Translations under genes and position numbers: made by a program
Notes under the pieces: generated by a model
The model's database searches: none
Told to the model about the DNA's origin: nothing
What the model saw: only the letters and a program-made list of their open reading frames with translations
Shown: piece after piece, positions 5,978 to 33,372 of the stretch
Position numbering within the stretch: the stretch's first letter is position 1
Layout: each line of letters starts with the position of its first letter
IMG/VR virus record: IMGVR_UViG_3300032173_000540
Coordinates: 1-54,048 of that record
Length of the DNA stretch: 54,048 bases
Source: a virus
Direction: 5' to 3' (one strand)

Positions 5978-6678
5978 TATTTTAATTCGTTTAATTTTTT
6001 AATTACATCAATTAAGACTTCAACGTCTTTTTCACAATATTTTACAATACCATCAATATCTTTTTTTATCCAAAAGGCTTCGTGAACTTTATTACCTGTA
6101 ATCTCCATTGTTTTAGATGACTCAACACCTAAACAAACACACATAAGTTCTAATGAAGCAATTGAACCATAACCACCGTATTGCCACACTTCTTTGGTGT
6201 CTAATGCTTTAATTTCCCATGGTTTTGTATCATGACCTGGTAAAATCTTAGGTGGCATAACACCATTCATAATCATTCTTTTTGCCATCATTGGGATGTC
6301 AAATCCTTTTACGTTGTGACCACATAAATAAAACCCAAGTTCACCAACTCTATATAGAAGTTTTTGAACTTCTTGTAATAGTTTTTTTTCATCAGGGTCA
6401 CTGAATGATTGCATCTTAATATCACCTTTATCTGTTACAAACGCAACGCTAACACATACAATTCTTGCGAATTCAGGAACTAACGCTGCTCTATTAACAA
6501 ACATATCACCAACAGGTTTGTCTGCATCTTCAGGAAATCTTTTTTGAAACCAATCATGGTAGTTTTGAAATTGGAATGCTAATTCAGGTCTGTTTTCCTC
6601 AAGAGACTTCCAATCAGGTTGAATACCTACAGTTTCAATGTCTAAGAATAATAATTTAGTAATTGGTATGTTTATCAT
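5977..6678 (-). CDS. DEDDy 3'-5' exonuclease (DnaQ/PolB-exo type)
   Basis: The 233-residue protein has the DEDD metal-binding set: D13-I-E15 (exo I), HNVKGFD with Asp127 (exo II) and Tyr214/Asp218 in YCEKDV (exo III). The Tyr makes it a DEDDy enzyme, related to the proofreading domain of family B polymerases. It would remove nucleotides 3'-5' from DNA or RNA. T4 encodes a comparable separate exonuclease, DexA; orthology is not claimed. It overlaps the upstream glycosyltransferase gene by 4 bases and dut by one. Confidence 0.85.
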   Translation of the reverse strand: MINIPITKLLFLDIETVGIQPDWKSLEENRPELAFQFQNYHDWFQKRFPEDADKPVGDMFVNRAALVPEFARIVCVSVAFVTDKGDIKMQSFSDPDEKKLLQEVQKLLYRVGELGFYLCGHNVKGFDIPMMAKRMIMNGVMPPKILPGHDTKPWEIKALDTKEVWQYGGYGSIASLELMCVCLGVESSKTMEITGNKVHEAFWIKKDIDGIVKYCEKDVEVLIDVIKKLNELK

Positions 6679-7883
6679 TTGATTATTGATTTATAAAATT
6701 CTGCTCTATCTTTTGTTACGTTATTTAAATCATATTTGTCTTTAACGGTTTCGTACAATCTTTCACCCATATCTTTTGCCATGTTTGGATTTTTAACCAA
6801 TTTTTCAATGTATTTAGACCAATCAGAGTGATTTCTTCTTTCTTCTACTAACATGGCGTTTCCATCAACAAACTCACCATTTTTTAAACAATGTTTTAAA
6901 TCAATAGTGTAAGGACCAATGTTTGATGCAATGACAGCTTTTTTATAGAAACCAGCTTCAATCACTTTTAATTGAGATTTTACTCTATTAAACATAGTGT
7001 CTTTAATTGGTGCCAAAGATACATCAAATTTTGAATAATTCTTAGCATAAGATGTAACAGGTTTTGTCCACACTCTTAAATAAGGTTCATTCATTTCATT
7101 TGGATATGACTCTTGAGTGTAATTTAATAAGAATTTTTTATAATCTTCAGAAACAGTTGTTAAGTTTTTTGTAAATATTTTTTCGTATTGAGCCCAAACA
7201 GTTTCATGTGGTAGAATGTTTCTTTTCTTATGCTCACCTGTTTGTTGATTAATTTCGGTAACAGAACCTCTTGTGTCAAAACCACATAGTACAAACTGTA
7301 ATTTATCGTTATGTTGACCCAATCTTCCAAAATCTAATAATTGTAGGTCATGTAAGTGAGAAGAACCGCCTAACCATCCAACTCTTAATCGGTCTGATTC
7401 AGGTGTTGGTTCTTTAAATTGTGGTTCATTAGGATTAATTGCGTTAGGAAATACAATAACATTTTTGTTTAACTTTTTAATTTCATCTGCAAATATTGTT
7501 GTTGTAGTTGTAACATATTTGGAAACCTTAAGGTTTGCCATAATTTTTTCGTTAATCTTGTTAACTCTAATAATATCATGGATTGGGTGTTCTTTACCTG
7601 GCATCCAATAATCGTCAATATCACAAATTGTGATAACACCCATTTCATTTAATTTTTGGATTAAATCGTGAGCTCTTTCAAAATCAGAACCAATACTTCT
7701 ATGGAATGCAACTATTTGATATTCTTTCCAAAAGTTCATATCATCATATGATGGTTCATAGATAATATCTACGTGGAAATCGTCACCGTAAAGATTTTGT
7801 AAAAAGACGTGAGGGTCGACAGACCTAAATTTACCCACACCAGTTCTATCAGAGGGGACTACTAATACTTTGATTTTTGACAT
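6675..7883 (-). CDS. GT-B fold glycosyltransferase
   Basis: The 402-residue protein opens with a strand-loop (KVLVVPSDRTGVGKFRSVDP) typical of GT-B enzymes. It contains ITICDIDDYWMPG in the N-terminal half and RVGWLGGSSHLHDL, the start of the donor-binding half. The SNIGPYTIDLKH region near residue 330 sits where GT4 enzymes bind the nucleotide sugar. It is soluble, with no signal peptide. It is the first gene after a 56-base gap that contains a candidate promoter. Donor and acceptor are unknown. Confidence 0.8.
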   Translation of the reverse strand: MSKIKVLVVPSDRTGVGKFRSVDPHVFLQNLYGDDFHVDIIYEPSYDDMNFWKEYQIVAFHRSIGSDFERAHDLIQKLNEMGVITICDIDDYWMPGKEHPIHDIIRVNKINEKIMANLKVSKYVTTTTTIFADEIKKLNKNVIVFPNAINPNEPQFKEPTPESDRLRVGWLGGSSHLHDLQLLDFGRLGQHNDKLQFVLCGFDTRGSVTEINQQTGEHKKRNILPHETVWAQYEKIFTKNLTTVSEDYKKFLLNYTQESYPNEMNEPYLRVWTKPVTSYAKNYSKFDVSLAPIKDTMFNRVKSQLKVIEAGFYKKAVIASNIGPYTIDLKHCLKNGEFVDGNAMLVEERRNHSDWSKYIEKLVKNPNMAKDMGERLYETVKDKYDLNNVTKDRAEFYKSIIK

Positions 7884-7926
7884 AATAAATTAATATATTT
7901 TTTAAAAATATAGTAATTCACGACTA

Positions 7927-7934
7927 ATAAATAA
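7927..7934 (-). promoter_or_regulatory. NTATTTAT motif (TTATTTAT) upstream of the GT-B gene
   Basis: Read on the minus strand this is TTATTTAT, 43 bases before the ATG at 7883. It belongs to a set of similar 8-base motifs that precede most transcription-unit starts in this window. The first base differs from the commoner G, A or C. Confidence 0.35.
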
Positions 7935-7939
7935 AGCGG

Positions 7940-8575
7940 TTAGGATAATTTTTTAATTTTGGTGACTTTACCCTCAAAGATGTGTTTGCCAACTTTGAAA
8001 CTAAAAACTTCGTTTGATTTTTCAGAACTTTCGGTTATTAAACCATTTTCATATAATGCATCGTTAACTGCCTCATTAATCATTTTTTTGATTAATTTAT
8101 AGTCAATACCGTTAGATTGTTGTGGTGTTGCAACTGGTGATTGTTTTGGTTTTGCAGATTCTGGAATGTATCCTTCTTTATTTACATTCATTAATCTTGT
8201 TGCCCTTTCAATTACATCGTTAGATATTGTGGTTGGCTGTTGTTGAGGTTGTCCAATTGGGTGTTCCATCATCAATCTTTTAATCTCATCAGGTAATTTA
8301 GAGTTTTTAATAGCGTCTACCGTTGGAACTCCAACTGGCTTGGTGTTTTCTCTTGGTATATTTGAAAGGTAAGGTTGTTGTGTTTGTTCTGATTCCTGTA
8401 AAAATTCTGCAGGAATATTGTATTTTGCCGTTGGCATATTAAATGATTCTGGAGAATTCATTTGTTGTAATGATGTTGGAGGTAATCCTCCATTCATAGA
8501 ATTACTATTTTTAATTCCGTCCGCTTTATCCATAATTGCTTTTGATAAAGCTAATTTTTCCATTAAATTGCTCAT
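7940..8575 (-). CDS. Hypothetical protein, low-complexity Gln/Pro-rich middle
   Basis: This 211-residue protein is not recognised. It begins with a short predicted helix (SNLMEKLALSKAIMDKADG), followed by ~110 residues rich in Pro, Gln, Asn and Ser that are likely disordered. A C-terminal part contains a helix (YKLIKKMINEAVNDALYENG) and a short beta segment (FSFKVGKHIFEGKVTKI). The pattern resembles phage structural or assembly proteins with flexible linkers, but no function can be assigned. Its ATG lies one base after the stop of the WYL-like gene, so the two are probably translated together. Confidence 0.7.
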   Translation of the reverse strand: MSNLMEKLALSKAIMDKADGIKNSNSMNGGLPPTSLQQMNSPESFNMPTAKYNIPAEFLQESEQTQQPYLSNIPRENTKPVGVPTVDAIKNSKLPDEIKRLMMEHPIGQPQQQPTTISNDVIERATRLMNVNKEGYIPESAKPKQSPVATPQQSNGIDYKLIKKMINEAVNDALYENGLITESSEKSNEVFSFKVGKHIFEGKVTKIKKLS

Positions 8576-12631: not shown

Positions 12632-13201
12632 ATGAACATAACAGATTGTAATTATTTTAGAATAACAAATTATAATAATGTCCAAGAAGGATATTATAGT
12701 TGGACTGGTTGTACTGATATAATTGGTGTTAACCCTGTTGACCCACTTCAGACAAGTTATTTTTGTGCTAAAGACATTTCTGTTGAAGAATATGGCGCAC
12801 CGCTTGATGTGGTCTTTATTGGTTTATGTCCGTCAAATACTCCAACACCAACATTAACTCCAACCCCAACACAAACTTCTGTAACTCCAACACCTACACC
12901 AACACCTGTTACACCAACCCAAACGCCAACCCCAAGTGCAACGCCAACTGTTATTTATATGTATAATTTATGGTCAGGTGGATATTATCAAAATGCTTGT
13001 GAAGCTGCGGGTATGTTTGCAAATCCTGCTAACGTAACAATCTATACAACAAAACCATATAATCTTTTAGTTCCTGGTGATAATGTATTTGGTAATTCAA
13101 CATTATCAATACCACCTGTAAACGCTAATTTTACAATTTCAAATGGTAATAGATTTATTCAAATAAGCGGAACGTTAGTAATTAATGCTGGAGTGTGTTA
13201 A
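12632..13201 (+). CDS. Modular virion protein with Thr/Pro linker (189 residues)
   Basis: Residues 1-67 form a small domain with four Cys (ITDCNYF, WTGCTDI, YFCAKDI, GLCPSN). Residues about 68-107 are a mucin-like linker of TPTPT, TPTQT and similar units. Residues about 108-189 form a second domain with Cys near both ends (YYQNACEAAG, then NAGVC at the terminus). The latter resembles, loosely, the terminal domains of the next two proteins. The start codon is 3 bases after the stop of the lectin-like gene, so the two are co-transcribed. It is probably exposed on the virion. Confidence 0.75.
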   Translation: MNITDCNYFRITNYNNVQEGYYSWTGCTDIIGVNPVDPLQTSYFCAKDISVEEYGAPLDVVFIGLCPSNTPTPTLTPTPTQTSVTPTPTPTPVTPTQTPTPSATPTVIYMYNLWSGGYYQNACEAAGMFANPANVTIYTTKPYNLLVPGDNVFGNSTLSIPPVNANFTISNGNRFIQISGTLVINAGVC

Positions 13202-13215
13202 TTTAAAATAATTAA

Positions 13216-13223
13216 GTATTTAT
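13216..13223 (+). promoter_or_regulatory. GTATTTAT motif before the second Thr/Pro-linker gene
   Basis: The sequence AGTATTTATTGAT ends only 4 bases before the ATG at 13228. Such a short leader agrees with Shine-Dalgarno-independent starts in this genome, although the start-to-element distance is unusually small for a -10 box. Confidence 0.45.
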
Positions 13224-13227
13224 TGAT

Positions 13228-14328
13228 ATGTCAATTGGAGTAAGAATTTTAAGTAATAATTTAAGTGGTCAGACCACAAATGTTACGTATTTCCCAGACA
13301 CGGGAGGTACGATTGATTTGGGGGCACAAGTATTCCCATTTAATTATATATCAAGTTACTATTATGGTAACTACGATTGTTATGTTCCAACTTATGGATA
13401 CAACTACATTGTTAATGTACCAGGACCAACACCCACACCTACACCCACAACAACCCCAACAGGTATTACACCAACAGTTACTTCAACTCCAACAAATACT
13501 CCTACTCCAACATTAACCCAAACTCCAACTAATACTCCAACATTAACCCAAACTCCAACCAATACGCCAACACCAACTATAACTCCAACAATAACTCAAA
13601 CACCAACCATAACTTCAACAAATACTCCAACGCCAACTATAACACCAACAATAACCCAAACATCATTTAATAATTTTGCGGCGTTTTCAGGAGTAACACC
13701 AAACGAAGCTTGTGTTAGTGGTGTCGCGGTAACATTATATGCTGCGGATAGTGTGTTTGAACAAAACAGTCAATTTTATAATAATCCAAATGGTACTGTG
13801 TCTATTAATATGTCAGGTTTCTATAGTTATGGTGGAGATGTTGTTCAATTAACTTCAGGTGGTACTGAAACAGGTGGATTTGGTTTATGTAGTAATTTAC
13901 CATCTCCAACTCCAACGCCTACTCAAACACCAACTCTAACGCCTACTCAAACACCAACTGAAACGCCTACTCAAACACCAACTAGCAGTAAAACACCTAC
14001 ACCGACACCAACAAATACTGAAACACCAACTAATACTCCAACAAATACTGAAACGCCAACTAACACTCCAACATTAACGCCAACTAACAGTGAAACACCA
14101 ACTAACACTCCAACACCAACTTTAACTCCAACACCAACAAATCCTTTCTGTAAACGATATACATTCTTTGGTGGAACTGGCGTTGACAATACAGTTTTTG
14201 TGGGTAAAGATTGTGGTGGATTTGATTATCTTATATCTTTACAACCTTTTGATAGTGAAACATCATGTGTTTCAACATATGAAATAGTTAGTGGTAATGG
14301 TTCTGCGACATATATAAATGGTTGTTAA
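13228..14328 (+). CDS. Modular virion protein with two mucin-like Thr/Pro linkers (366 residues)
   Basis: The order is: a Tyr/Gly-rich N-terminal domain (1-67); a linker of TPT-type repeats (about 68-147); a ~75-residue domain ([14 protein letters not shown] to ETGGFGLC); a second linker rich in TPTQTPT, TPTNTET and TPTLTPT (about 226-306); and a final Cys-containing domain ending YINGC. The middle domain is a close paralogue of one in the next gene, including at the DNA level. The linkers are made of Thr, Pro and a few Asn, Gln, Glu and Ser, so they are extended and rich in potential O-glycosylation sites. Function as a fibre or surface decoration is inferred. Confidence 0.78.
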
Positions 14329-14372
14329 TAAAAATAATTTAAAATTTATAGATAATAATAAACAATATTGTA

Positions 14373-14380
14373 GTATTTAT
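14373..14380 (+). promoter_or_regulatory. GTATTTAT motif before the third Thr/Pro-linker gene
   Basis: The sequence AGTATTTATATTT ends 18 bases before the ATG at 14399, in a 70-base AT-rich gap without any clear terminator. Confidence 0.5.
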
Positions 14381-14398
14381 ATTTAAATAGAAATTAAG

Positions 14399-15454
14399 AT
14401 GGCATGTAGCAAATATACTTTAACAAATACGGGTACAACCGCAGTGAACTTCAACTATAGAAGATGCGATGACTCTATGTGGGAATATCAAGTAAATCTT
14501 GACCCAAATCAAACTAAAAATATTTGGTTAATTGACGGAACCTATGATGCTGCTCAAATTTTTGAGGCGAGCATTATTTTGGTTAATAACGGAGTATATC
14601 CGTTAACTCCAACACCAACAAGAACTCCAACTCAAACTCCAACACCAACCTCAAGTGTAACTCCAACACCAAGTATAACACCGACAAATACGGTTACTCC
14701 GACAAATACGGTTACTCCGACAAATACGGTTACTCCGACACCAACTCAAACACCAACTCAAACTCAGACCCCAACTCAAACTCAGACCCCAACTCAAACT
14801 CAGACCCCAACAAATAGTCAAACTCCAACTAATACTCCAACACCAACTATTACTCCAACAAATGCCTATGATTCGTTTTTTGTAGCGTCAGGTTCAACTG
14901 CTAATAATGCATGTAATGGTGTAGGTGGTTCAGGAACTATTTATGCGGAAATTTCAACGTTTGACCAAAACAATCAATTCTATAATAATTCAAATGGTAC
15001 TGTTTCAGGTAGTATGTTAGGATTCTATAGCTTTGGTGGACAAGTTGTTCAATTAACATCTGGTGGTACTGAAACAGGTGGATTTAGTTTATGTTCTGTA
15101 GTTCCTACACCAACACAAACACCAACAACAACTCAAACACCGACACCAACACAAACAAATACACCAACACAAACAAGTACACCAACAACAACACCAACAC
15201 CGACTCAATCGTTCTTTGCAACCTATAGTTTAGGTACAGGCTCAACAGCAAATGATGCTTGTTTAGCAACACCTCAAACAATTTACGGAGCGTATGTTGA
15301 CAGACCACAACCAAACCTTGGTGAAATTTTATATACCAATAATATCCTAACAATTACAGCACCAAATGGTTATTATTCTAATGGAACCGCATGGTGGCAA
15401 ATTACGGGAGGTTCTGGTGAAGTCACCGCAACTGACCCTAATGGATGTATTTAA
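14399..15454 (+). CDS. Modular virion protein with mucin-like Thr/Pro linkers (351 residues)
   Basis: The N-terminal domain (1-70) has YTLTNTGTTAVNFNYRRCDD and a conserved-looking LDPNQTKNIWLIDGTYD segment. A long linker follows (about 71-158), built of TPTQT, TNTVTP and TQTQTP repeats. Next is a domain (FFVASGSTANNACN to TGGFSLC) paralogous to the middle domain of the previous protein, then a second linker (about 236-272). A last domain begins TYSLGTGSTANDACL and ends DPNGCI. The conserved pattern A-N-x-A-C near the domain start and G-x-C at the end suggests one disulfide per domain. Directly downstream are a terminator and the GT60-type gene. Confidence 0.78.
   Translation: MACSKYTLTNTGTTAVNFNYRRCDDSMWEYQVNLDPNQTKNIWLIDGTYDAAQIFEASIILVNNGVYPLTPTPTRTPTQTPTPTSSVTPTPSITPTNTVTPTNTVTPTNTVTPTPTQTPTQTQTPTQTQTPTQTQTPTNSQTPTNTPTPTITPTNAYDSFFVASGSTANNACNGVGGSGTIYAEISTFDQNNQFYNNSNGTVSGSMLGFYSFGGQVVQLTSGGTETGGFSLCSVVPTPTQTPTTTQTPTPTQTNTPTQTSTPTTTPTPTQSFFATYSLGTGSTANDACLATPQTIYGAYVDRPQPNLGEILYTNNILTITAPNGYYSNGTAWWQITGGSGEVTATDPNGCI
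14681..14740 (+). repeat. Perfect 18-base tandem repeat, three copies plus a partial
   Basis: The unit CCGACAAATACGGTTACT is repeated without change at 14681, 14699 and 14717, then begins again. It encodes Thr-Asn-Thr-Val-Thr-Pro. Perfect identity including wobble bases implies recent expansion by slippage or recombination. Confidence 0.95.
14759..14812 (+). repeat. 18-base tandem repeat, three copies
   Basis: The unit CAAACTCAGACCCCAACT occurs at 14759, 14777 and 14795, the last with one changed final base. It encodes Gln-Thr-Gln-Thr-Pro-Thr. It is a second, independent expansion in the same linker. Confidence 0.95.
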
Positions 15455-15534: not shown

Positions 15535-16800
15535 ATGAAAATATTCGTTCAAATAGCATCTTACAGAGACCCACAACTGGTTCCAACAATTAAAGACATG
15601 TTGGCAAATGCCAAAAAACCAAATAACATAGTTATTGGTATTGCAAGACAATATAGTCCTGAAGACGGGTTTGATAATTTAGATGAATACAAAGATGACA
15701 AAAGATTTAGAATTTTAGATATTCCTTATCAAGACGCTAAAGGTGTATGTTGGGCAAGACACCAAGTTCAACAACTTTATAAAGGTGAAACATATACACT
15801 ACAAATTGATTCTCACATGAGATTTGTTAAGGATTGGGATGATATCCTTATCAAAATGATAAAGGGGTTACAGAAGGACGGGTATAAGAAACCTTTACTT
15901 ACGGGTTACGTTCCTTCTTTTGACCCCGAAAATGAACCAGCAGGAAGAGCACAAGAGGCTTGGAGAATGGCGTTTGACCGTTTTATCCCTGAAGGTGCAG
16001 TATTCTTCTTACCTGAAACAATTCCAGGTTGGAAAGAATTAAAAAAACCTGTAACCGCAAGATTCTACTCGGCTCACTTCTGTTTTACATTAGGACAATT
16101 TTCAACTGAAGTTCAACACAACCCTGAATATTATTTCCACGGAGAAGAGATTTCAATCGCAGCAAGAGCTTACACTTGGGGTTATGATTTATTCCATACA
16201 CACATTCCTGTTGTTTACCATGAATACACTCGTAAGGGTAGAACAAAACAATGGGATGATGACAAAACTTGGGGACAAAAGAATAGTCACTCACATTTAA
16301 CAAATAGAAAATTGTTTGGTATGGATGGTGAAACTCAAGAAGGTCATGATGGTCCTTATGGTTTTGGTCCTGTTAGAACTTTAACTGAGTATGAAAAATA
16401 TGCGGGTATTCTTTTTTCAAAAAGAGCGATTGACAAATATACTTTAGATAAAAATTATCCACCAAACCCATATACTTTTGAAACAGAACAAGAGTGGAAA
16501 GATAGTTTCTGTATGATGTTCAAACATTGTATTGATATTGGATATTCTCAAGTAACTGAAACTGATTACGATTTTTGGGTTGTTGCATTCCACGGTAAAG
16601 ACGACAAAACTTTATTCCGTAAAGATGCCGATAAAAACGAAATTGCAGGTTTTATGAGAGACCCTGACAAATATTGTAAAGTATGGAGAGAATTTCAAAC
16701 TGACGAATTACCAACACATTGGGTTGTTTGGCCTCACTCAGAATCAAAAGGATGGTGTGATAGAATCACGGGTCAATTAACACATAATACCGTGAGTTAA
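15535..16800 (+). CDS. GT60/Skp1-type GlcNAc-transferase homologue
   Basis: The 421-residue protein starts with IFVQIASYRDPQLVPTI and has LQIDSHMRFVKDWDD with the family's D-x-H site at Asp92-Ser-His94. It continues with the TARFYSAHFCFTLGQF and HGEEISIAARAYTWGYD acceptor-side blocks, all typical of the GlcNAc glycosyltransferase family. Characterised GT60 members transfer GlcNAc from UDP-GlcNAc onto hydroxyproline of Dictyostelium Skp1 or onto Thr of trypanosome mucins. Residues about 325-421 are an extra C-terminal region. It lies immediately after three Thr/Pro-rich virion proteins, which suggests, but does not prove, that those linkers are the acceptor. Confidence 0.85.
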   Translation: MKIFVQIASYRDPQLVPTIKDMLANAKKPNNIVIGIARQYSPEDGFDNLDEYKDDKRFRILDIPYQDAKGVCWARHQVQQLYKGETYTLQIDSHMRFVKDWDDILIKMIKGLQKDGYKKPLLTGYVPSFDPENEPAGRAQEAWRMAFDRFIPEGAVFFLPETIPGWKELKKPVTARFYSAHFCFTLGQFSTEVQHNPEYYFHGEEISIAARAYTWGYDLFHTHIPVVYHEYTRKGRTKQWDDDKTWGQKNSHSHLTNRKLFGMDGETQEGHDGPYGFGPVRTLTEYEKYAGILFSKRAIDKYTLDKNYPPNPYTFETEQEWKDSFCMMFKHCIDIGYSQVTETDYDFWVVAFHGKDDKTLFRKDADKNEIAGFMRDPDKYCKVWREFQTDELPTHWVVWPHSESKGWCDRITGQLTHNTVS

Positions 16801-17234
16801 TGATATTAATTTCACATAGGGGAAATTTAAACGGTCCTAATGAGGTCAGAGAAAACTCACCATATTATATTATGGAAGCGATTGCTGAAGGATATGATGT
16901 TGAAGTTGACTTATGGTGGGTTAATGGTAGAGTTTATTTGGGGCACGATGAGCCACAATATGAAGTTAGTGATGAGTGGTTAGGTGAACGAATTGATAAA
17001 TTATGGGTTCATTGTAAAAATGTTGAATCTTTAAATTGGATTAGAAGTACCTCATTAAATTATTTTTGGCACGAACAAGATACACTAACATTAACATCTA
17101 AAAATTATATGTGGGTGTATCCTGGTAAACAACCGATAACTGGAAGTATTGCAGTTATGCCCGAAATACATAATGACGACATTTCAAAATGTTTGGGTGT
17201 TTGCTCAGACTTTATAAAAAGATATGATGATTAA
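16800..17234 (+). CDS. GDPD-like (glycerophosphodiesterase fold) protein
   Basis: The 144-residue protein begins ISHRGNLNGP, followed by YDVEVDLWWVNGRVYLGHDEP. These are the H-R-G, E-x-D (Glu35, Asp37) and G-H-D (His49, Asp50) active-site blocks of glycerophosphodiester phosphodiesterases. It is only about half the usual ~240-residue length and lacks the later barrel strands. Small versions of this type are known beside capsule-synthesis genes. It overlaps the GT60-type stop by one base and the next gene by 11 bases, so it is part of the glycan cassette. Substrate unknown. Confidence 0.72.
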   Translation: MILISHRGNLNGPNEVRENSPYYIMEAIAEGYDVEVDLWWVNGRVYLGHDEPQYEVSDEWLGERIDKLWVHCKNVESLNWIRSTSLNYFWHEQDTLTLTSKNYMWVYPGKQPITGSIAVMPEIHNDDISKCLGVCSDFIKRYDD

Positions 17235-18585
17235 AACAATAATATTTGATTTAGATGGTGTATTGGTTGATGCCAAAGAAATTCATTACGAATCTTTAAA
17301 TAAAGCGTTAAGGGATTATTCTATCACTTGGGATGAACATTTATCAATTTATGATGGTTTAAAAACCAATCAAAAATTAGATATGTTACATGAACGAAAA
17401 GGTTTACCTAAAGAAAAATTTAAAGAGATTTGGGACAATAAACAAACCTATACATTACAATCATTAAGAAATTTAAAATACAACCCCGATTTGGTAACAA
17501 CAATGACTATGTTGGTTAATGAAGGGTATAAATTAGCAGTATGTTCTAATAGTATTAGAAAAACTGTTTTAACCGTTTTGAGTAAGCTGGGTATTATTGA
17601 GTTTTTTGATTTAATACTTTCTAATGAAGATGTAAAAAATTCAAAGCCACATCCTGAAATTTATTGGAAAGCAATATCTATGGTAGGGTGTTTACCTGAA
17701 GAAACATTAATTATTGAGGACTCTCCTTACGGTTTATTAGCGGCATCAAGAAGTAAGTCACATGTTTTTAGAGTAAAATCACCAATTGAAGTTACTTACA
17801 TTAACATAACAAAAAAAATATTAGAAATAAAATCAGGACACAATATTATGACACCAAAATGGGAAGATAATAATTTAAATGTACTAATCCCAATGGCGGG
17901 TGCGGGTTCAAGATTTCAACAAGCTGGTTACACATTTCCAAAACCTCTTATTGAAGTTCATAATAAACCAATGATTCAAGTGGTTGTTGATAATCTAAAC
18001 ATAAATGCAAATTACATTTATGTTGTTCAAAAATCACATCGTGAAAAATATAATTTAGATACACTCTTAAATTTAATAACCCCAAATTGTAAAATTGTTG
18101 AGGTTGATGGTATTACAGAAGGTGCTGCGTGTACCGCATTATTGGCTAAAGAATACATTAACAATAACTCACCTTTGTTTTTTGCAAACTCAGACCAGTT
18201 TGTTGAATGGGATTCAAATGAATTTATGTATAAAATGAATGAGACTGATGCGGATGGTGGTATTGTAACTTTTAAAGCGACTCACCCTAAATGGTCTTTT
18301 GCAAAAGTAGATGACAATGGATACGTTAGTGAAGTTGCTGAAAAAAATCCAATTTCAGATAACGCAACAGTTGGTTTTTATTATTGGAAACATGGTTTAG
18401 ATTTTGTAAAATATGCCGAACAAATGATTCAAAAAAATGTTAGAGTCAATAATGAATTTTATGTATGCCCTGTTTTCAATCAAGCGGTAGAAGACAATAA
18501 AAAAATAAGAGTTTACGAAGTTAATAATATGTGGGGTTTAGGTACTCCAGAAGACTTAAACTTTTATTTAGAAAATAAAAAATAA
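17224..18585 (+). CDS. HAD phosphatase / sugar nucleotidyltransferase fusion
   Basis: Residues 1 to about 205 are a HAD phosphatase of the beta-phosphoglucomutase type: D9-L-D11-G nucleophile motif, VCSNSIRKTV (motif II), and SKPHPEIYWKA with EDSPYGLLAA (motifs III/IV). Residues about 217-453 are a nucleotidyltransferase: LIPMAGAGSRFQQAGYTFPKP is the G-x-G-x-R nucleotide loop with the downstream PKP. FANSDQFVEW carries the metal Asp and WGLGTPEDLNFY ends the domain. Together they could dephosphorylate a sugar phosphate and activate another as NDP-sugar. The fusion is plausible for capsule-type sugar synthesis. Confidence 0.85.
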   Translation: MMIKTIIFDLDGVLVDAKEIHYESLNKALRDYSITWDEHLSIYDGLKTNQKLDMLHERKGLPKEKFKEIWDNKQTYTLQSLRNLKYNPDLVTTMTMLVNEGYKLAVCSNSIRKTVLTVLSKLGIIEFFDLILSNEDVKNSKPHPEIYWKAISMVGCLPEETLIIEDSPYGLLAASRSKSHVFRVKSPIEVTYINITKKILEIKSGHNIMTPKWEDNNLNVLIPMAGAGSRFQQAGYTFPKPLIEVHNKPMIQVVVDNLNINANYIYVVQKSHREKYNLDTLLNLITPNCKIVEVDGITEGAACTALLAKEYINNNSPLFFANSDQFVEWDSNEFMYKMNETDADGGIVTFKATHPKWSFAKVDDNGYVSEVAEKNPISDNATVGFYYWKHGLDFVKYAEQMIQKNVRVNNEFYVCPVFNQAVEDNKKIRVYEVNNMWGLGTPEDLNFYLENKK

Positions 18586-18587
18586 AT

Positions 18588-19457
18588 ATGAAAGACATAT
18601 CATTTGTAGTTTTCACCAATGAAAACTATTTCAACTTATTGTATCTAACACTACCATATACAATAGAGAACACAAAACATTTAAACAAGATAATTAATAT
18701 TGTTTCAAATAAAATACCTCAACATGAAAAATTTGAGGGGGTAAATTATATTGATTCAAATGTTAATTTTTCAGGTGATGGTTCACATTTTAGAGATAGT
18801 TTATTATTCGCATTAAATCAAATACCTGAAGATTATATATTATTCTTGTGTGATGATTATTTAATTAAATCACCAATAAATAAAAATAGATTTGATAATA
18901 TTATTAATATTTTAGATAAAATTAATGGTGATTATTTGGCATTGGGTACACAAAAACACATTGAAAATTTTGTGGTTAATTGGGAAAAACCAAACATAAC
19001 ATTATCGGAATATGGGTTTCCTGATGGATGTTTTTATAAATTTGATGTGACCGCAAGACATATGTATTCAGTACAACCATGTGTTTGGAAAAAATCTTCT
19101 TTAATAGAATTATTAACCAACAACCCATCGCTTACTTTACATCAATTAGATAATACCAATATCTTAAACAAGAAAGGTGAAAATAGACAATTAAGTGAGT
19201 TTTTTAATTTTTCTTTTTACGAAAACAAAGAAAACTTTTTTGATTATGAATTTAATAATTTTTGTTATCATTACCCACCAATCAGTTACCACGTTGATGA
19301 AAAACCATTATCTACAGATTTTTTATTAATTGATTATATTGAAATTGTTAGACATGGTAAATTTTTAGATGCTAATGTTAATTCTAAAGATATTCTTAAT
19401 AACATATTAAATTCAAACGAAAATATAAAAAATAAACTAAAAAAATTTATAAATTAA
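18588..19457 (+). CDS. Putative GT-A glycosyltransferase (289 residues)
   Basis: The N-terminal strand ISFVVFTNENYFNLLYLTLPYTIEN and the later strand DYILFLCDDYLIKSP, with its paired Asp in the D-x-D position, suggest a GT-A glycosyltransferase. No signal peptide or membrane helix is visible. The C-terminal third is Asn-rich and diverged. The gene is 2 bases after the fusion gene and 4 bases before the methyltransferase, consistent with one transcript. Motif support is partial, so another nucleotide-sugar enzyme is possible. Confidence 0.65.
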   Translation: MKDISFVVFTNENYFNLLYLTLPYTIENTKHLNKIINIVSNKIPQHEKFEGVNYIDSNVNFSGDGSHFRDSLLFALNQIPEDYILFLCDDYLIKSPINKNRFDNIINILDKINGDYLALGTQKHIENFVVNWEKPNITLSEYGFPDGCFYKFDVTARHMYSVQPCVWKKSSLIELLTNNPSLTLHQLDNTNILNKKGENRQLSEFFNFSFYENKENFFDYEFNNFCYHYPPISYHVDEKPLSTDFLLIDYIEIVRHGKFLDANVNSKDILNNILNSNENIKNKLKKFIN

Positions 19458-19461
19458 AACT

Positions 19462-20013
19462 ATGATGCCAGGAAATTGGGGCTATTTAGGTCCAGATGTC
19501 AAACAATACTTAACCGAAAACTTTGAACCAACATGTTCTATATTAGACATTGGTTGTGGTCACGGATTCTATATTAAACTATTAGGTGATTACTTCAAAA
19601 AATTTGACGCTGTTGAGGTTTGGGAACCTTACATTAAAGAATACAAATTAACCGAAATGTACAATAACGTATTCAACGTTAATATATTAGATTTTGAATT
19701 TGAATATTACGACATTATTATTATGGGGGATATTCTTGAACACTTATCAAGGGAAGACGCTAAAAATCTTTTAAATAAATTAAAAGACAAGTGTAGAGAA
19801 CTAATCGTTGTTGTTCCATATTACTTACCTCAAGATGAAGTTTTTGGTAATAAATATGAAATTCACTTACAACCAGACTTGGATGACTCCATTATGTCAG
19901 AACATTATCCAATGTTAGAAATGATTAATCTTAATGGTAAAGAATTAAAAATTCCAATTGATATGGGTACTCACTATTACTATTACTGTGCGTTCAAGAA
20001 AAAAACTAATTAA
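19462..20013 (+). CDS. Class I SAM-dependent methyltransferase
   Basis: The 183-residue protein has motif I ILDIGCGHGFYIKLL (about residues 27-41). VEVWEPY follows with its acidic residue for the SAM ribose, and then YYDIIIMGDILEHLSREDA, the usual motif IV and helix. It is a compact Rossmann methyltransferase, probably acting on a sugar or small molecule given its place in the glycan cassette. Two adjacent ATGs (19462 and 19465) could start it. Its stop overlaps the next ATG by one base. Confidence 0.85.
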   Translation: MMPGNWGYLGPDVKQYLTENFEPTCSILDIGCGHGFYIKLLGDYFKKFDAVEVWEPYIKEYKLTEMYNNVFNVNILDFEFEYYDIIIMGDILEHLSREDAKNLLNKLKDKCRELIVVVPYYLPQDEVFGNKYEIHLQPDLDDSIMSEHYPMLEMINLNGKELKIPIDMGTHYYYYCAFKKKTN

Positions 20014-20900
20014 TGAATAATAAAATCTTATTTAAATTCAGTTTTGAAAATGGATGGGGAGACACATTTTTAAGTGTGTTTGATATCGTTAATTGTGTCG
20101 ATTTTTTAAAAAATCAATACCCAAATTTTCAATTCATTTTACTCATAAATGACAAATACAATGTTAAAACTTTAGAGGAAGTATTAAATATTAATTTTTT
20201 CACTGAGTTTTTTGACGAATTTAAAATTTTAAATAAAGATAATTTATTTGTGTCCATAAATGGACTTTCAACATATGGCGATATTGAATATAAAAGATTG
20301 TATTCAGGTAGAAATAATGACCTATTCAATGACATTAACGGCATTTTTGATGTGTATGTACCAACAAATAACTATGATGAGGTTAAAAATTTAAACATAC
20401 CATTTATTGATTTTACATTTAACGATAATGACGACAGAGCAAAAGATTTTGACGTATTTAATAAAAATATTGTAAATAATGTTAATAAATTTATTTCCGA
20501 TAATTTTGAAGGGGATTTTGAATCTATATATTATCGCTCGTTACCCCCGCTGAATTCTGAAAAAATTTTGAATTTTAAAAATAGTTTAGTTGAAACTTTA
20601 AATCCAAACAAAAAATATTTTATATGTTCAAATTCTAGTTTTGTGAAAAAAATATTTTCAGAAACTAATTTAGACATTAAAATGTATCGTAATTTAGAGA
20701 ACCATAACCCAAATCACATATCAACTGGATTTGTTAGGTTTGGACAAACTATTGATGAAGCATTGTATGTTGTTGGAGAATTAATGATATTAAGTAAATG
20801 TAAAAACATATACTATTGTGGAGATATGAGTTATACAAGTCTATTTAATTGGTATCCTATAAACATAAAAAAAGTTAAACTAACAAATATTGTAATATGA
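20013..20900 (+). CDS. Uncharacterised glycan-cassette protein (295 residues)
   Basis: Not confidently recognised. It starts with KILFKFSFENGWGDTFLSVFDIVNC, a Gly-rich loop after the first strand as in GT-B enzymes. It has YFICSNSSFVKKIF in the middle, similar to a second Rossmann start, and a late ELMILSKCKNIYYCGDMSYTSL, reminiscent of the donor-site end of fucosyltransferase-like folds. A GT-B glycosyltransferase is a reasonable guess. It overlaps both neighbours by 1-4 bases. Confidence 0.6.
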   Translation: MNNKILFKFSFENGWGDTFLSVFDIVNCVDFLKNQYPNFQFILLINDKYNVKTLEEVLNINFFTEFFDEFKILNKDNLFVSINGLSTYGDIEYKRLYSGRNNDLFNDINGIFDVYVPTNNYDEVKNLNIPFIDFTFNDNDDRAKDFDVFNKNIVNNVNKFISDNFEGDFESIYYRSLPPLNSEKILNFKNSLVETLNPNKKYFICSNSSFVKKIFSETNLDIKMYRNLENHNPNHISTGFVRFGQTIDEALYVVGELMILSKCKNIYYCGDMSYTSLFNWYPINIKKVKLTNIVI

Positions 20901-21757
20901 AAATAATAATAACAACTTTAAGCTTTGGTGAAAATTACACTAAAGATTACACACTACGAATGATTGAAGATGTTTTATCTTTAACTGATATTGAAATGTA
21001 CATAACTACTGACTGTAGACATTTAATTGAAGAAAAATATGGTAATTCAGATAGAATCAAATATAACGAAATTAAACGCGAAGATTTAAAAGTTTCATTA
21101 CCTATTGGACCAAACAAAGGTGCCCGTGATTTTAATTTTAACATGAGATATTTGTGTTTAGACCACGTAAAAGATATTGACGATGCAATTATTATTTTTA
21201 CGGATTGTGATAATTCTTTTGATTGGTGGGATAAAGAGCAGGTTTTAAACTTTGTTAAAACAAGTTTTGAAAATGGTCATGACTATTTTGCGCCAAGAAC
21301 AGGTCTCAAGTTTAAAAATTTAATATCAAGATACAATACATTTTGTAAGAAAAATCCACATACAGATTCATTAGATTATGATTTATGTACACTTGCTTGG
21401 CATAAATTATTTAACTATGATTTGGTAGATGTGAATATTAATCAGGTAGTTGAAGGTGAAAACCATAAATGGGGTGAAGCTTCTTTTCCATCCGAATATC
21501 TTATAATTTTCTATAATAATAACGGTAAATTAAATAAGATGGTTGAACAATGGAAATGGTTTTACGATTACTTAAATAATAAGGATTATACATTTGGTAC
21601 TTGGGCGGAAGGGTTTGAAATTGGTGTTTCAGCATTAACTGCAGGGTTTAAAGATTTAGACATTTCATATTCACATCCTATATGGAGTAAGGTTTTTACA
21701 CCTAATGGATATAAAACAGGACCTAGAGCGGGTACGGTACACGCAACTGAAAAATAA
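20897..21757 (+). CDS. Putative GT-A glycosyltransferase (286 residues)
   Basis: The protein begins MKIIITTLSFGENYTKDYTL and has DDAIIIFTDCDNSFDWW, a strand followed by a D-x-D motif (Asp-Cys-Asp). The later WGEASFPSEYLIIFYNN and WAEGFEIGVSAL segments resemble the acceptor-side region of GT6/GT8-like enzymes. No membrane segment is seen. It overlaps the previous gene by 4 bases and the next by one. Confidence 0.7.
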   Translation: MKIIITTLSFGENYTKDYTLRMIEDVLSLTDIEMYITTDCRHLIEEKYGNSDRIKYNEIKREDLKVSLPIGPNKGARDFNFNMRYLCLDHVKDIDDAIIIFTDCDNSFDWWDKEQVLNFVKTSFENGHDYFAPRTGLKFKNLISRYNTFCKKNPHTDSLDYDLCTLAWHKLFNYDLVDVNINQVVEGENHKWGEASFPSEYLIIFYNNNGKLNKMVEQWKWFYDYLNNKDYTFGTWAEGFEIGVSALTAGFKDLDISYSHPIWSKVFTPNGYKTGPRAGTVHATEK

Positions 21758-22704
21758 TGAATAAATTAATCATATCATACGAACAAGGGTATAACAATTG
21801 GTACGTTAGTGAATTTTATAAATATTTTCACAAACAACTATCAGAAATAACAAATATTCAATTTGAATACATCTCTTTACAAGATTTATCAAAAAAATTT
21901 GGTAAAGAATATACTAACCAAACTGGTAGTATTTTTAATTGGTATAACCTTGTAATATACAATCAAACTACAGATAAGTTTTTTGTTCATAGTTGGTATG
22001 ATTACGCTCCTGAAATATTAAAATATTCAGTTAACAACAATTTTAATGTTGTTAAATTTTCTTGCGTTTCTAATTTAACGGATTCAATAATTGAGGAATA
22101 TAAAGACAAGATTATTGTACAACCTTCGGTATATTATGTTGAAAATTGGAAAGACATTGAATACATACTTTCAACCGAAAAGTCGTCATTTAAAGATGAT
22201 AGAATTTATTTTAATGGATTAAATCACGGTATTAGAGAAAATGTTTTAAATTCATTATCAAATAATTCATTTTTTAATATTAGAACAAAAGGTAATCCCG
22301 AACACTTTAGACAAAAGAAAGACTATTACGATGAAGTTTCTAAACACAAATTTGGCCTAAGTTTAAATGGTGCTGCAAATATTTGTTATAGAGATTTGGA
22401 ATTATTTGGTCTTGGGGTAATAAACTTGAGACAACCTCTTAATTCTAAAACATACGAGCCACTTGTAAAAGATATTCATTATGTTGAATTCATAAACGAA
22501 GACTTGGTTAATAAAATTTTAATCAAAGAAAACGTTGATACAATTATTAATGATAAAGTTAATGAAATTTTAGAATTTAGTATGACTAACCAATATAATG
22601 ATATGATTCAGGAATCAAAAAAGTGGTTTAATAATAATTGTCTACCTGAAAATCAATTTAAAACAATCGTTTCTTTTCTTGACGATTTTAATATTTTTTT
22701 ATAA
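21757..22704 (+). CDS. Putative GT-B glycosyltransferase (315 residues)
   Basis: An N-terminal strand-helix (LIISYEQGYNNWYVSEFYKYF) and a C-terminal segment, YYDEVSKHKFGLSLNGAANICYRDLELFGLG, resemble the donor-binding end of GT90-like enzymes, where a disc of Gly-Ala residues and an Arg contact the nucleotide. The middle has NGLNHGIRENVL, a likely second-domain start. Assignment is by weak motif resemblance plus context in a glycosyltransferase run. Confidence 0.6.
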   Translation: MNKLIISYEQGYNNWYVSEFYKYFHKQLSEITNIQFEYISLQDLSKKFGKEYTNQTGSIFNWYNLVIYNQTTDKFFVHSWYDYAPEILKYSVNNNFNVVKFSCVSNLTDSIIEEYKDKIIVQPSVYYVENWKDIEYILSTEKSSFKDDRIYFNGLNHGIRENVLNSLSNNSFFNIRTKGNPEHFRQKKDYYDEVSKHKFGLSLNGAANICYRDLELFGLGVINLRQPLNSKTYEPLVKDIHYVEFINEDLVNKILIKENVDTIINDKVNEILEFSMTNQYNDMIQESKKWFNNNCLPENQFKTIVSFLDDFNIFL

Positions 22705-22723
22705 AACACATATACAATAATTT

Positions 22724-24394
22724 ATGGGAATAACATTAGTAACGGGACTTTGGAATATTAAACGAGATGGGCTCACTCAAGGGTGGTCTCGCTCATTTCA
22801 ACACTATTTAGATAAATTTGAACAACTTTTAAAAGTTGATAATCCAATGATTATTTTTGGTGATTCTGAATTAGAATCATTTGTATTTGAAAGAAGAAGT
22901 CGTGAAAATACTTTATTTGTTAATAGAAGTCAGGAATGGTTTAAAAATGAATTATATGGTAAGATTCAAGAAATAAGAACCAACCCTGAGTGGTTCAATC
23001 TTGCGGGATGGTTATCTGAATCAACTCAAGCAAGATTAGAAATGTATAATCCTTTGGTGATGTCAAAAGTTTTTTTATTAAACGACGCTAGAATTATGGA
23101 CCCGTTTGAATCTGAAATGATGTTTTGGATTGATGCTGGATTAACAAATACGGTACATCCAGGATACTTTACCCATGATAAGGTTTTAGATAATTTATCT
23201 AAATATATTTCAAAATTTTCTTTTGTGTGTTTTCCTTATGAGGCAGAAAATGAAATTCATGGATTTGAATTTAACAAATTAAACTCAATTGCGGGAGCAA
23301 AGGTTAATAAAGTTGCAAGAGGTGGATTTTTTGGTGGGCCAAAACATACTATTAGCGATATTAATGGAATCTATTATAATTTTTTAAAAAACACATTAGA
23401 TGAAGGTTATATGGGAACCGAAGAATCAATTTTTAGTATTATGTGTTATACTCATTCGGATTTAATTAATTATTTTGAAATTGAGTCAAACGGATTATTT
23501 GGTAAATTCTTTGAGGATTTAAAAAATGATGATTTAAAACCTAAATCTGAAAGTAAAATATCTGTCGTTAACAATTTAGATACAAATAAGGTTGGTTTAT
23601 ATGTGATAACATTTAATAGTCCAAATCAATTTAGAACCTTAATTGATTCTATGATTGCATACGATAAAGATTACATATACAAAACAAAAAAGTTTTTATT
23701 AGATAACTCAAGTGACTTAACAACTACCGAGGAATACTCGGTAATTTGTGAAGAGTATGGTTTTGAACACATTAAAAAAGATAATTTAGGTATTTGTGGT
23801 GGTCGTCAATGGATTGCAGAACATTTCCAAAATGAAACTGATTTAGATTTTTATTTGTTTTTTGAAGATGATATGTTTTTTTATCCAAACGAAGGAGAAG
23901 TGTGTAGGAATGGATTTAATAGATATGTTCCAAACTTATATTCAAAGACATTACAAATTGTTAAAAAAGAAAATTTTGATTTCCTTAAACTTAATTTTAG
24001 TGAGTTTTTTGGGGATAACGGAACTCAATGGGCTTGGTATAATGTTCCCCAAAATGTTAGACAAAAATATTGGCCAGGTAAAAATAGATTACCTGAACAA
24101 GGTTTAGACCCAAATGCACCAAAAGCTCTATATGATTCAGTTAGAACATATCAAGGTGTACCATATGTAACAGGTGATGTTTATTATTGCAATTGGCCTC
24201 AAATCGTAAGTAGAACTGGTAATCAAAAAATGTTCTTAGATACAACATGGGCTCACCCGTTTGAACAAACATGGATGAGTCACATGTATCAGTTAGTTAA
24301 AGAAGGTGAATTATATCCTGGGTTATTGCTTATGACACCAACTGAACACGATAGATTTGACCATTATGAAAGAAGTTTAAGAAAAGAGTCATAA
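22724..24394 (+). CDS. HtrL/YibB-like domain plus GT2-like glycosyltransferase
   Basis: Residues 1 to about 270 match the HtrL/YibB/WlaTC type: TLVTGLWNIKRDG, then NPMIIFGDSEL, then NPLVMSKVFLLNDA and MMFWIDAGLTNTVHPGYF. This family is glycosyltransferase-related and found in LPS loci. Residues about 290-556 begin VGLYVITFNSPNQFRTLIDSM and include FYLFFEDDMFFYPNEG with a metal-binding D-D motif, so this half is a GT2-type domain. A two-enzyme fusion is likely. It is the last gene of the cassette and begins 19 bases after its neighbour without a clear promoter. Confidence 0.75.
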   Translation: MGITLVTGLWNIKRDGLTQGWSRSFQHYLDKFEQLLKVDNPMIIFGDSELESFVFERRSRENTLFVNRSQEWFKNELYGKIQEIRTNPEWFNLAGWLSESTQARLEMYNPLVMSKVFLLNDARIMDPFESEMMFWIDAGLTNTVHPGYFTHDKVLDNLSKYISKFSFVCFPYEAENEIHGFEFNKLNSIAGAKVNKVARGGFFGGPKHTISDINGIYYNFLKNTLDEGYMGTEESIFSIMCYTHSDLINYFEIESNGLFGKFFEDLKNDDLKPKSESKISVVNNLDTNKVGLYVITFNSPNQFRTLIDSMIAYDKDYIYKTKKFLLDNSSDLTTTEEYSVICEEYGFEHIKKDNLGICGGRQWIAEHFQNETDLDFYLFFEDDMFFYPNEGEVCRNGFNRYVPNLYSKTLQIVKKENFDFLKLNFSEFFGDNGTQWAWYNVPQNVRQKYWPGKNRLPEQGLDPNAPKALYDSVRTYQGVPYVTGDVYYCNWPQIVSRTGNQKMFLDTTWAHPFEQTWMSHMYQLVKEGELYPGLLLMTPTEHDRFDHYERSLRKES

Positions 24395-29067: not shown

Positions 29068-30600
29068 TTATTGTATATTATACATTAGTGAATCAATAGG
29101 AAAAACAAAATTACCTCTAACAATTTTAGGTTTCTTATTAAATATTAAAACATTCTTACTTTTTTGAAAAATCATTAGGTCGGTTTTATAAATCTTAACA
29201 CTTGCGGTACCTTCTAAAGTAATTCCATCTTCACCCATAACCATTTGTCTGAATGGTTTAATTTGACCAGTTAAAACTTCACCATCTTTTGTAATTTCTA
29301 AATCAACACCTTGTATTGCGTCTCTTTTACTACCTAATTCACCAACAACTTCAACTTTAACATCTTTACCAAAATGTCTTTTAAGGATTGATGCCGTAAT
29401 TTCTTCTCTTTTTGAACCAGCATTATTTTTATCAGTTAAGGTTCTTAATAAGTTGTGAAGGGTTGCACTATCCTTATCAAAGATTCTATATTTGAAGTGG
29501 TCAATCGCTTTAATAAATCTTTCAACCTCTTTTTTTTGTTCCATAGGTTTTTTATCCATGAAACTAATTGGTTTTTTATTAGGGATTTTTGAAATGACTT
29601 GGTTTAAATCTTTTAATAAAATACAAAAAGACGTGTAGTTTGTGTTTAACTTATTAATAACAGACCTGCCAGGACCTTCAAGGTCATAAACACCAGGTAA
29701 TTGGTCGTTTTCAGGTTTTAAAATATAATTTTCAGGAAAAACTTCTTTCATGATTTTATTAATACCGTTCATATAAGTCCACTTAATATCTGAATTTACA
29801 TTAAACAACATTCTATAAAATTCATTCTCTGATTGAGAACACATTTCAGATTTACCTTCACTTAAAACTTGTTTCATTTTTATAGATTCGGTTAATTTGG
29901 TTTCAACTTTCATTTCATACATCTTGGTAACAAAATCCCAATTAACTACTTTCCAAAAGTTCGTGATGTATTCATCTCTTTTGTTTCTATATTTTAAATA
30001 ATAGGCATGTTCCCACAGGTCTAAACCTAATAAAGGAAATCCCCCACCTTCAATCACATTCATTAATGGATTGTCTTGGTTTGGAGTTGACATAATTTTT
30101 AAAGTGTTATTTGAGGTTAGAATTAACCACACCCAACCTGAACCGAAACGGTCTTTGGCTTGTTTCTCAAATTCTTTTTTGAAATTTGTGAAGGTACCCC
30201 ATTGTTTGGTTATCTTTTTATAAAGTTCACCATCCAATTTTTTTGGTTCGGGTGTTAACATGTTCCAAAACAGTGCGTGGTTAAATGCCCCACCTGCGTT
30301 GTTTCTTATTGTCTTATCAAAACGACTTATGGTCTTGATAATTTTTTCTAAATCTAAATCTCCGTATTTCTTTTTAGCTAATGCGTCGTTTAGTTTATCC
30401 ACATACCCTTTATAATGTTTGTTATAATGAAAGTTCATTGTCTCTGGGTCAATAAACTGTTTGAGGGCTGTATAGGAGTAAGGTAATTTTTCTATTCCTA
30501 TTTTTTTCATTTCGGTAATCAACAACTCTTTTTCTTGGTTAACGTGGTTTTCAAGTATTTGGTTTTCTAGTTGTTGGATTTTCTCTTGTGTTTTTTTCAT
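29068..30600 (-). CDS. Fe/Mn superoxide dismutase fused to a possible PD-(D/E)xK nuclease domain
   Basis: Residues 36-228 are a complete Fe/Mn SOD: KLPYSYTALKQFIDP, His58 in FHYNKHYKGYV, His108 in GGAFNHALFW, the GSGWVWL strand, and Asp194/His198 in DLWEHAYYLKYRNKRDEYI. All four metal ligands are present. Residues about 255-510 are an added domain not found in SODs. In it, GSKREEITASILKRHFG, Asp433 in GVDLEI and Gln446-x-Lys448 in GQIKPF are spaced as in PD-(D/E)xK nucleases, with Gln in place of Glu. The N-terminal 35 residues form a coiled coil. The SOD call is firm; the nuclease call is weak. Confidence 0.85.
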   Translation of the reverse strand: MKKTQEKIQQLENQILENHVNQEKELLITEMKKIGIEKLPYSYTALKQFIDPETMNFHYNKHYKGYVDKLNDALAKKKYGDLDLEKIIKTISRFDKTIRNNAGGAFNHALFWNMLTPEPKKLDGELYKKITKQWGTFTNFKKEFEKQAKDRFGSGWVWLILTSNNTLKIMSTPNQDNPLMNVIEGGGFPLLGLDLWEHAYYLKYRNKRDEYITNFWKVVNWDFVTKMYEMKVETKLTESIKMKQVLSEGKSEMCSQSENEFYRMLFNVNSDIKWTYMNGINKIMKEVFPENYILKPENDQLPGVYDLEGPGRSVINKLNTNYTSFCILLKDLNQVISKIPNKKPISFMDKKPMEQKKEVERFIKAIDHFKYRIFDKDSATLHNLLRTLTDKNNAGSKREEITASILKRHFGKDVKVEVVGELGSKRDAIQGVDLEITKDGEVLTGQIKPFRQMVMGEDGITLEGTASVKIYKTDLMIFQKSKNVLIFNKKPKIVRGNFVFPIDSLMYNIQ

Positions 30601-32449: not shown

Positions 32450-32962
32450 ATGCAGAAATTAGTTCCAATTACAAGATTAGGTAAGTTCTTTGGTGGAGAA
32501 GACTACGCCTTGGATACCAATATGGGCCAAGAGTGGTTAGAAGGTGATATGAACTTCACGGTTGTATTATATCGTATTGACCGATATAAAACAAAGACTG
32601 ATAGTGTATATGGTGAGGTTTTGGAAGACGGGATACAATTTTTGGTTCCTGTTGAATTAAAGGGACTTGTTCAAGTCATGGCACCTGCTCAGAAATTTTT
32701 GGGTAGTTCTAAAGTTGAACAACAAGAACCAGGTAATATGAAATTCTCCGTTTATCAAAAACAACTTGATGAATTGGGTGTTGAAATATTCATGGGCGAT
32801 TACCTTGGTTATTATGAAACCGAAGACCGAGTTAGATATTATTCGGTTAGTGATGACGGATATGTAAGGTCCGACAATAAACATACATATGCAGGATACA
32901 AACCATTTTATAGAACGGTTGTTGCAACATATGTAAGTGAAAATGAATTTAGAGGAATTTAA
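32450..32962 (+). CDS. Probable head-tail connector or neck protein (170 residues)
   Basis: The sequence (MQKLVPITRLGKFFGG onward) is a compact alpha/beta protein without Cys. It has IQFLVPVELKGLVQVMAPAQKF in the middle and YVRSDNKHTYAGYKPFYRTVVATYV near the end. Its place as first gene of a unit that continues to a terminator-like protein and then the sheath suggests a neck or connector subunit, like T4 gp14, though no sequence match is claimed. A TTG 18 bases upstream was rejected as start. It overlaps the next ATG by one base. Confidence 0.6.
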   Translation: MQKLVPITRLGKFFGGEDYALDTNMGQEWLEGDMNFTVVLYRIDRYKTKTDSVYGEVLEDGIQFLVPVELKGLVQVMAPAQKFLGSSKVEQQEPGNMKFSVYQKQLDELGVEIFMGDYLGYYETEDRVRYYSVSDDGYVRSDNKHTYAGYKPFYRTVVATYVSENEFRGI

Positions 32963-33372
32963 TGAATGTTGTTATAACAGAGTCACAATTTGATTCTTTA
33001 TTTGTTGGTAAAAAAGTTATGGTGTATTATAATTTACACAAACACACCTTTTCGGTAACATACGACAGTAAAGTAATTATGCATGCTGACTATGTTAAAT
33101 TGGGTGATGTTGAATTTAGAGTTAGAAAAGGTGGTAAAGAGAGAGTTCGTTCAGAAAAATCAAAAAACGTTCACGCATTTGTAATAGGAAAATTATTGGA
33201 CTATTGTGAATATCCTTGTGATGGAATACCAACACCATCATCAGATAAAGTTGTAACGTATAATCCATACAAAAACGACACATTTGTATTTAAGAATACT
33301 GAAGAGCCTGTTTATCACGCACAAGAAGTTGATATGATAAACTCAAAAAATAAACTATTTGTTGTAAAATAA
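32962..33372 (+). CDS. Conserved phage protein of unknown function (136 residues)
   Basis: The protein contains KKVMVYYNLHKHTFSVTYDSK, then VEFRVRKGGKERVRSEKSKNVHAFVIGKL. I recall a similar block (YYNLHK, then R-x-R-V-x-x-E-K-x-KNVHAFV) from many phage hypothetical proteins, but I do not know its function. The basic patch and small size might suit nucleic acid binding. It overlaps the connector-like gene by one base and precedes the tail-terminator-like gene by 4 bases. Confidence 0.65.
   Translation: MNVVITESQFDSLFVGKKVMVYYNLHKHTFSVTYDSKVIMHADYVKLGDVEFRVRKGGKERVRSEKSKNVHAFVIGKLLDYCEYPCDGIPTPSSDKVVTYNPYKNDTFVFKNTEEPVYHAQEVDMINSKNKLFVVK

Follow-up and report, generated by a model that had tools for sequence, protein, structure and literature searches.

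Conserved candidate prohead-protease sites in a phage superoxide dismutase–nuclease fusion suggest a capsid-cargo polyprotein

A gene of freshwater phages, probably T4-type, encodes a superoxide dismutase (SOD) and a swappable, predicted nuclease in a single chain, which we think is probably a capsid-cargo polyprotein, packed in the prohead, cut into its parts and ejected. The gene lies in the window, the whole 54,048-nucleotide stretch analysed here (IMG/VR record IMGVR_UViG_3300032173_000540), and its parts are separated by conserved [L/I]-x-E sites (Table 1). The position of these sites points to cutting of the chain in the capsid rather than to one bifunctional enzyme, the form presupposed by the roles that an initial annotation of the sequence had proposed. 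New here are the conserved linker sites, the exchange of cassettes behind the SOD and the repeated loss of the SOD.

Table 1. Features of the fusion gene and its immediate neighbours, in window positions.
Feature	Position	Strand	Remarks
Fusion gene, 510 aa	29068..30600	-	leader + SOD + linker + PD-(D/E)xK nuclease (predicted); same architecture in hundreds of viral contigs
N-terminal leader, residues 1-30	30511..30600	-	helical; proposed capsid-targeting propeptide, ending in I-T-E30
Site 1, I28-T-E30/M31	30508..30519	-	predicted prohead-protease site, leader/SOD boundary
SOD, residues 31-238	29887..30510	-	ligands H58, H108, D194, H198; Mn-type NQDNP motif (presumed type)
Site 2a, L236-T-E238/S239	29884..29895	-	E238 invariant, 199/199
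Site 2b, L246-S-E248/G249	29854..29865	-	predicted SOD/nuclease cut
C-terminal cargo, residues 249-510	29071..29856	-	helical subdomain, then PD-(D/E)xK-type core from ~residue 379
Putative catalytic set E399, D427, D433, Q446, K448	29257..29406	-	invariant, 199/199
SNF2-type helicase, 583 aa	30642..32393	-	upstream, 41 bp away; phrog_62, E 1.6e-116
Head-tail adaptor (neck) protein, 373 aa	27922..29043	-	downstream, 24 bp away; phrog_211, E 3.6e-10

The open reading frame, which the initial annotation had given without a strand, is real, begins with ATG and lies on the minus strand. Two scans of IMG/VR yielded 157 complete homologous ORFs, every one with both halves; homologues with both ends within the contig measured 508-517 residues, and SOD and nuclease occurred together in 208 of the 228 distinct classified SOD ORFs, which came from many separate metagenomes. 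The protein search advised at the outset thus recovered the same architecture, and an assembly error joining two genes was rejected, the fusion occurring at one locus in hundreds of independent contigs. In one contig (L282:6944-8487) the SOD and the nuclease lie in separate ORFs, with an apparent frameshift between them in the linker, be it a contig error or real; this contig was excluded from the analysis on that account. Among named phages, a full-length match was absent from the 50,697 records of the GenBank collection. A UniProt/BFVD entry of 501 residues (A0A6J5L953) has the same architecture and was deposited unremarked as 'superoxide dismutase'. The earlier statement that no such fusion is known therefore stands for the papers searched, none of which describes one, and fails for the databases. 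No paper on a SOD–nuclease fusion or on an ejected SOD was found in the open-access literature searched. SODs of freshwater phages are themselves already published, and are proposed to shield the infected host against reactive oxygen (PMC6802176). The phage origin first assumed for the DNA is borne out by a virus record carrying a B-family polymerase, sheath, tail tube and neck, and is further supported by gp23 and gp21 homologues in relatives.

The SOD half matches the Pfam domains Sod_Fe_N (residues 36-115, E 1.1e-21) and Sod_Fe_C (residues 124-226, E 1.1e-39), and its best matches among solved structures in the PDB are Mn/Fe SODs (E 6e-58, residues 38-230). All four metal ligands are correct and invariant in 199 of 199 distinct relatives, as are the second-sphere residues H62, Y66 and E197, in agreement with the first reading of a complete Fe/Mn SOD. 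Through their Gly/Gln arrangement the NNAGG and NQDNP motifs are those that we take to mark an Mn-type enzyme. Like the Bacteroidota Mn/Fe SODs, to which it is ~50% identical, the phage SOD is a full domain with every ligand; unlike bacterial SODs it is fused, and has a leader and linkers. This similarity, together with matches of the polymerase to Salinibacter phages, makes Bacteroidota the suspected hosts.

Beyond about residue 240, profile searches gave no family match above the cut-off, and the PDB held no sequence match of the nuclease domain; weak sub-threshold matches were to DUF6602 (E 0.002, below the cut-off) and PADLOC PD_DExK (E 0.011). The assignment to the PD-(D/E)xK nucleases therefore rests on fold and residues. 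An AlphaFold model of the C-terminal domain, made with 34 aligned sequences, was confident (pLDDT 92.8, pTM 0.88), and the best solved structures in Foldseek were I-Ssp6803I (E 5e-3, probability 1.00) and then Hjc resolvases (2e-2), the matches 2ost, 4tkd and 1gef having probabilities of 0.98-1.00 at modest E values of 5e-3 to 4e-2. The D-x(n)-Q-x-K pattern that had been noticed in this part corresponds to D433...Q446-x-K448, to which E399 and D427 are added, and the set is invariant in all 199 distinct relatives. Because the fold matches agree and the catalytic set does not vary, a PD-(D/E)xK-type nuclease by fold is well supported despite the modest E values, and the structure prediction and fold search point to a predicted nuclease, as first suspected, rather than to an unrelated fold. 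The domain shares the core fold and E/D/QxK-type residues with I-Ssp6803I and archaeal Hjc and differs from both in an extra helical N-terminal subdomain of ~130 residues. A cellular origin of the domain was considered and set aside, one genome-contig scan with a close-pattern search having returned no relative, which is weak evidence on the point.

The 199 sequences share just four conserved [L/I]-x-E positions: 28-30, 195-197, 236-238 and 246-248. The second belongs to the SOD catalytic motif LWEH and has an invariant middle residue; the other three have very variable middles and are all confined to linkers. At site 1 the E is conserved at 97% and L/I two positions earlier at 91%, with a variable residue between them; among 228 distinct proteins, 207 have [L/I]xE and 221 have xE. 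The P1' residue here is mostly M rather than the usual small residue, which makes site 1 less canonical than site 2. Residue 237 of site 2a is among the most variable, though E238 itself never changes. At site 2b, E248 is conserved at 99%; of the 207 distinct proteins, 199 have [L/I]xE there, and the next residue is mostly G, S, Q or A. A full-length AlphaFold model drops below a pLDDT of 50 only at residues 23-32 and 240-250, and the three sites sit in or beside these two disordered segments; were they placed at random over the 510 positions, the chance of all three falling within the ~30 linker positions would be ~2e-4. A clear site 2 is missing in a few relatives (L147, L270), and the linkers of L487 and L506 are without a clear [L/I]xE. 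Several other cargo ends at the locus follow a similar linker ('KKLNESYMKILLE', 'KTLKESIKDKETLNE'), and forms ending after the SOD are without it. The motif was absent from the N-termini of the neck protein and p176, which served as a negative control; a similar string at the SNF2 N-terminus in the window was discarded as not conserved.

The linker sites fit the specificity of the T4 gp21 prohead protease (reviewed in PMC9026906). Characterised prohead proteases of this kind all cut after Glu; in T4 Alt the cleavage sites are ITE-6 and LTE-619 (PMC5694885). Neither gp21 nor gp23 is present in the window itself, a 54-kb fragment. Among partial records of relatives, a Peptidase_S77 of the gp21 type was found in 7 of 12 and 4 of 11, and the Gp23 capsid protein occurred in 11 of 14 relative records, each time with LINE/A[ST] near residue 60, the position at which T4 gp23 is cut, losing 65 residues (PMC9958956). 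A 182-kb relative (G001), the one genome tested, has [L/I]xE[GSA] within the first 20 residues of 15 of its 155 ORFs against 5.9 expected, a level reached in 2 of 2,000 shuffles. An autocleavage-like site at the start of its protease gene was dropped, as it is not conserved in relatives.

We infer a mechanism in three steps, with the domains packaged, then cut, then ejected. The gene would be expressed late and together with the neck gene in one unit; the leader would serve as a capsid-targeting signal that brings the chain into the prohead core. A gp21-type protease would then remove the leader and a 10-residue spacer, leaving a SOD of ~25 kDa (24.7) and a nuclease of ~30 kDa (30.1) in the head; for this step the sites give exact predictions, namely cuts after E30, E238 and E248. 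Finally, both enzymes would be ejected along with the genome, the SOD clearing superoxide near DNA that is packaged or entering, or within the cell under attack, and the nuclease acting on DNA at the start of infection, with host DNA, rival elements and DNA structures as its possible targets. Besides the irregular or missing sites and the lack of gp21 and gp23 in the window, two further points count against this proposal. No propeptide known to exit the head is as large as the 25-kDa SOD, which would therefore have to remain inside. Moreover, a fused nuclease can be packaged and delivered by T4 heads and, once activated by calcium, can cut the packaged genome (PMC9026906); restraint of the nuclease in the head is thus a problem for the model, and a metal-dependent nuclease packed with the genome would have to be specific, be kept inhibited or do the phage DNA no harm.

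It is unlikely, in our judgement, that the protein instead works uncut as a bifunctional enzyme in the infected cell, its SOD protecting replicating DNA or the nuclease, and its nuclease partnering the SNF2 helicase in recombination, repair or the destruction of foreign DNA. Gene order at the locus is constant with or without the SOD (SNF2 - X - neck - p111 - polymerase, where X is the fusion-locus gene). Consistent with an uncut enzyme, the SNF2 gene is always 5' of the fusion gene, its helicase matches ZorD (E 1e-42), a defence protein comprising a helicase plus an Mrr-like nuclease, and the fold matches of the C-terminal domain include the Holliday-junction enzyme Hjc. An uncut enzyme leaves unexplained, however, why three [L/I]xE sites occur in linkers alone, why SOD-less forms retain the leader and the site, and why the linker is missing where no cargo comes after it.

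When the window was compared with five relatives (L098, L110, L085, L113 and L118), DNA identity was mostly 70-95% across the helicase and SOD, dropped to ~40-73% between codon ~240 and the stop codon, and rose again in the neck gene. With such high flanks, the drop indicates that the nuclease is exchanged as a cassette behind the SOD. SOD-less X proteins of 278-309 residues are nested inside SOD-bearing ones in a pattern that needs at least three changes; on this nesting the SOD is lost at least three times, with leader, site and nuclease retained. The [L/I]xE site is kept in five of six SOD-less clusters, L189 having none. Divergent SOD queries also recovered 18 distinct proteins with an HE[WF]xH N-terminal domain before leader and SOD, 11 of which end after the SOD and 7 of which have other C-termini. 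Strings read by eye only, 'FDVIV...IQVKP' in the C-terminus of L535 and 'YDI...SCKV' in L458 and its kin, are suggestive of further PD-(D/E)xK domains. A wider form of the cargo proposal, to which we give tentative and lesser credence, is a delivery platform, shared at one locus by a large set of freshwater phages, in the form of a capsid polyprotein whose conserved SOD and swappable effectors (several nuclease types, an HExxH domain) would be freed by the protease and injected. On entry the SOD would then guard the DNA or counter an oxidative response; the nucleases, varying under diversifying exchange, would target host DNA or competing elements.

Block-wise swapping of the nuclease segment would also suit a host-protecting auxiliary gene whose working part is the SOD, with the nuclease inserted at its 3' end as a selfish or homing-type element, as would the fold similarity to the homing endonuclease I-Ssp6803I and the host-protecting role reported for freshwater-phage SODs (PMC6802176). 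We consider this improbable: the nuclease outlasts the SOD in at least three lineages, occurs in nearly all members at the same place rather than sporadically, and is under purifying selection (dN/dS about 0.1).

Among close relatives, dN/dS was 0.024 for the SOD, 0.038 for the helicase, 0.054 for the neck protein and 0.099 for the nuclease. The SOD thus has the lowest value of the locus and is its best conserved part; on these ratios it is intact and under strongly purifying selection, and a decayed domain is ruled out by the invariant ligands together with the value of 0.024. For the same two reasons a purely structural use of the SOD fold, one of the roles first entertained, is unlikely, and a non-catalytic module serving carriage or assembly (such as a dimeric handle bringing variable cargo into the head), which would agree with a conserved SOD standing before variable C-termini, is highly improbable given that the second-sphere residues are invariant too.

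As a capsid-cargo polyprotein, the fusion would resemble the T4 internal proteins IPI-III and Alt, capsid cargo that is cut by gp21 and ejected, in its leader ending in [L/I]-x-E, in the gp21 and gp23 homologues of its relatives and in cargo that varies among relatives. Unlike these proteins, it joins multiple cargo parts into a single chain that has internal sites, here known from sequence, and SOD and nuclease are not among the T4 cargo. Ejection proteins of the giant phages SPN3US and phiKZ likewise have long parts N-terminal of the cut, with propeptides of > 100 residues (PMC5694885), and several sites per protein, but their propeptides are not known enzymes and their motif is S/A/G-x-E rather than L/I-x-E. 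Polyvalent proteins, multidomain injected proteins of phages and conjugative elements in whose description superoxide is unmentioned (PMC5512222), also have several unrelated effector domains per chain, with HExxH domains in some members. They are injected, and proteolytic release is expected of them as of the fusion, for which it would be by the prohead protease; the fusion, whose multidomain make-up is read from its sequence and whose delivery we infer, is also smaller. If the cargo proposal is true, the phage head carries both an antioxidant enzyme and a nuclease, freed from one chain by the capsid protease, and the concept of T4 internal proteins would widen to include multi-enzyme polyproteins. 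An ejected SOD would then make it possible to test directly whether oxidative stress is important when a phage enters, and the locus would be one where the conserved carrier shows which of the variable effectors count.

Several further features were observed at and around the locus. An HExxH metallopeptidase-like domain stands before the SOD with nothing after it in L480, L491, L495, L498, L504, L505, L511, L520, L536 and L538. At the same locus, L512:5521-7044 (+) encodes HExxH, SOD and a short unrelated C-terminus, and L512 has 1.5 kb of extra sequence ahead of the neck gene. The SNF2 helicase of the window also resembles the helicase part of the DpdE and DrmD defence proteins. A 136-residue neighbour (window 32962-33372; phrog_586, PF25735-like) starts with MK-x-x-[ILV]-T-E-[SQ] in most relatives. 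Some of its counterparts (L165:3089-4570 (-); L170:3462-4940 (-)) have a zinc ribbon and a C-terminal domain related to the nuclease of the fusion (GGVDVTI...YQIKP), and there may be a second nuclease-bearing protein near the fusion locus. Three adjacent proteins at window 12632-15454 are rich in PTPTxTPT repeats and are probably tail-fibre or adhesin-like. Read by eye, window 1-8000 and 15535-24394 contain many glycosyltransferase- and sugar-metabolism-like genes, together with NAD-synthase-like and dUTPase-like ORFs.
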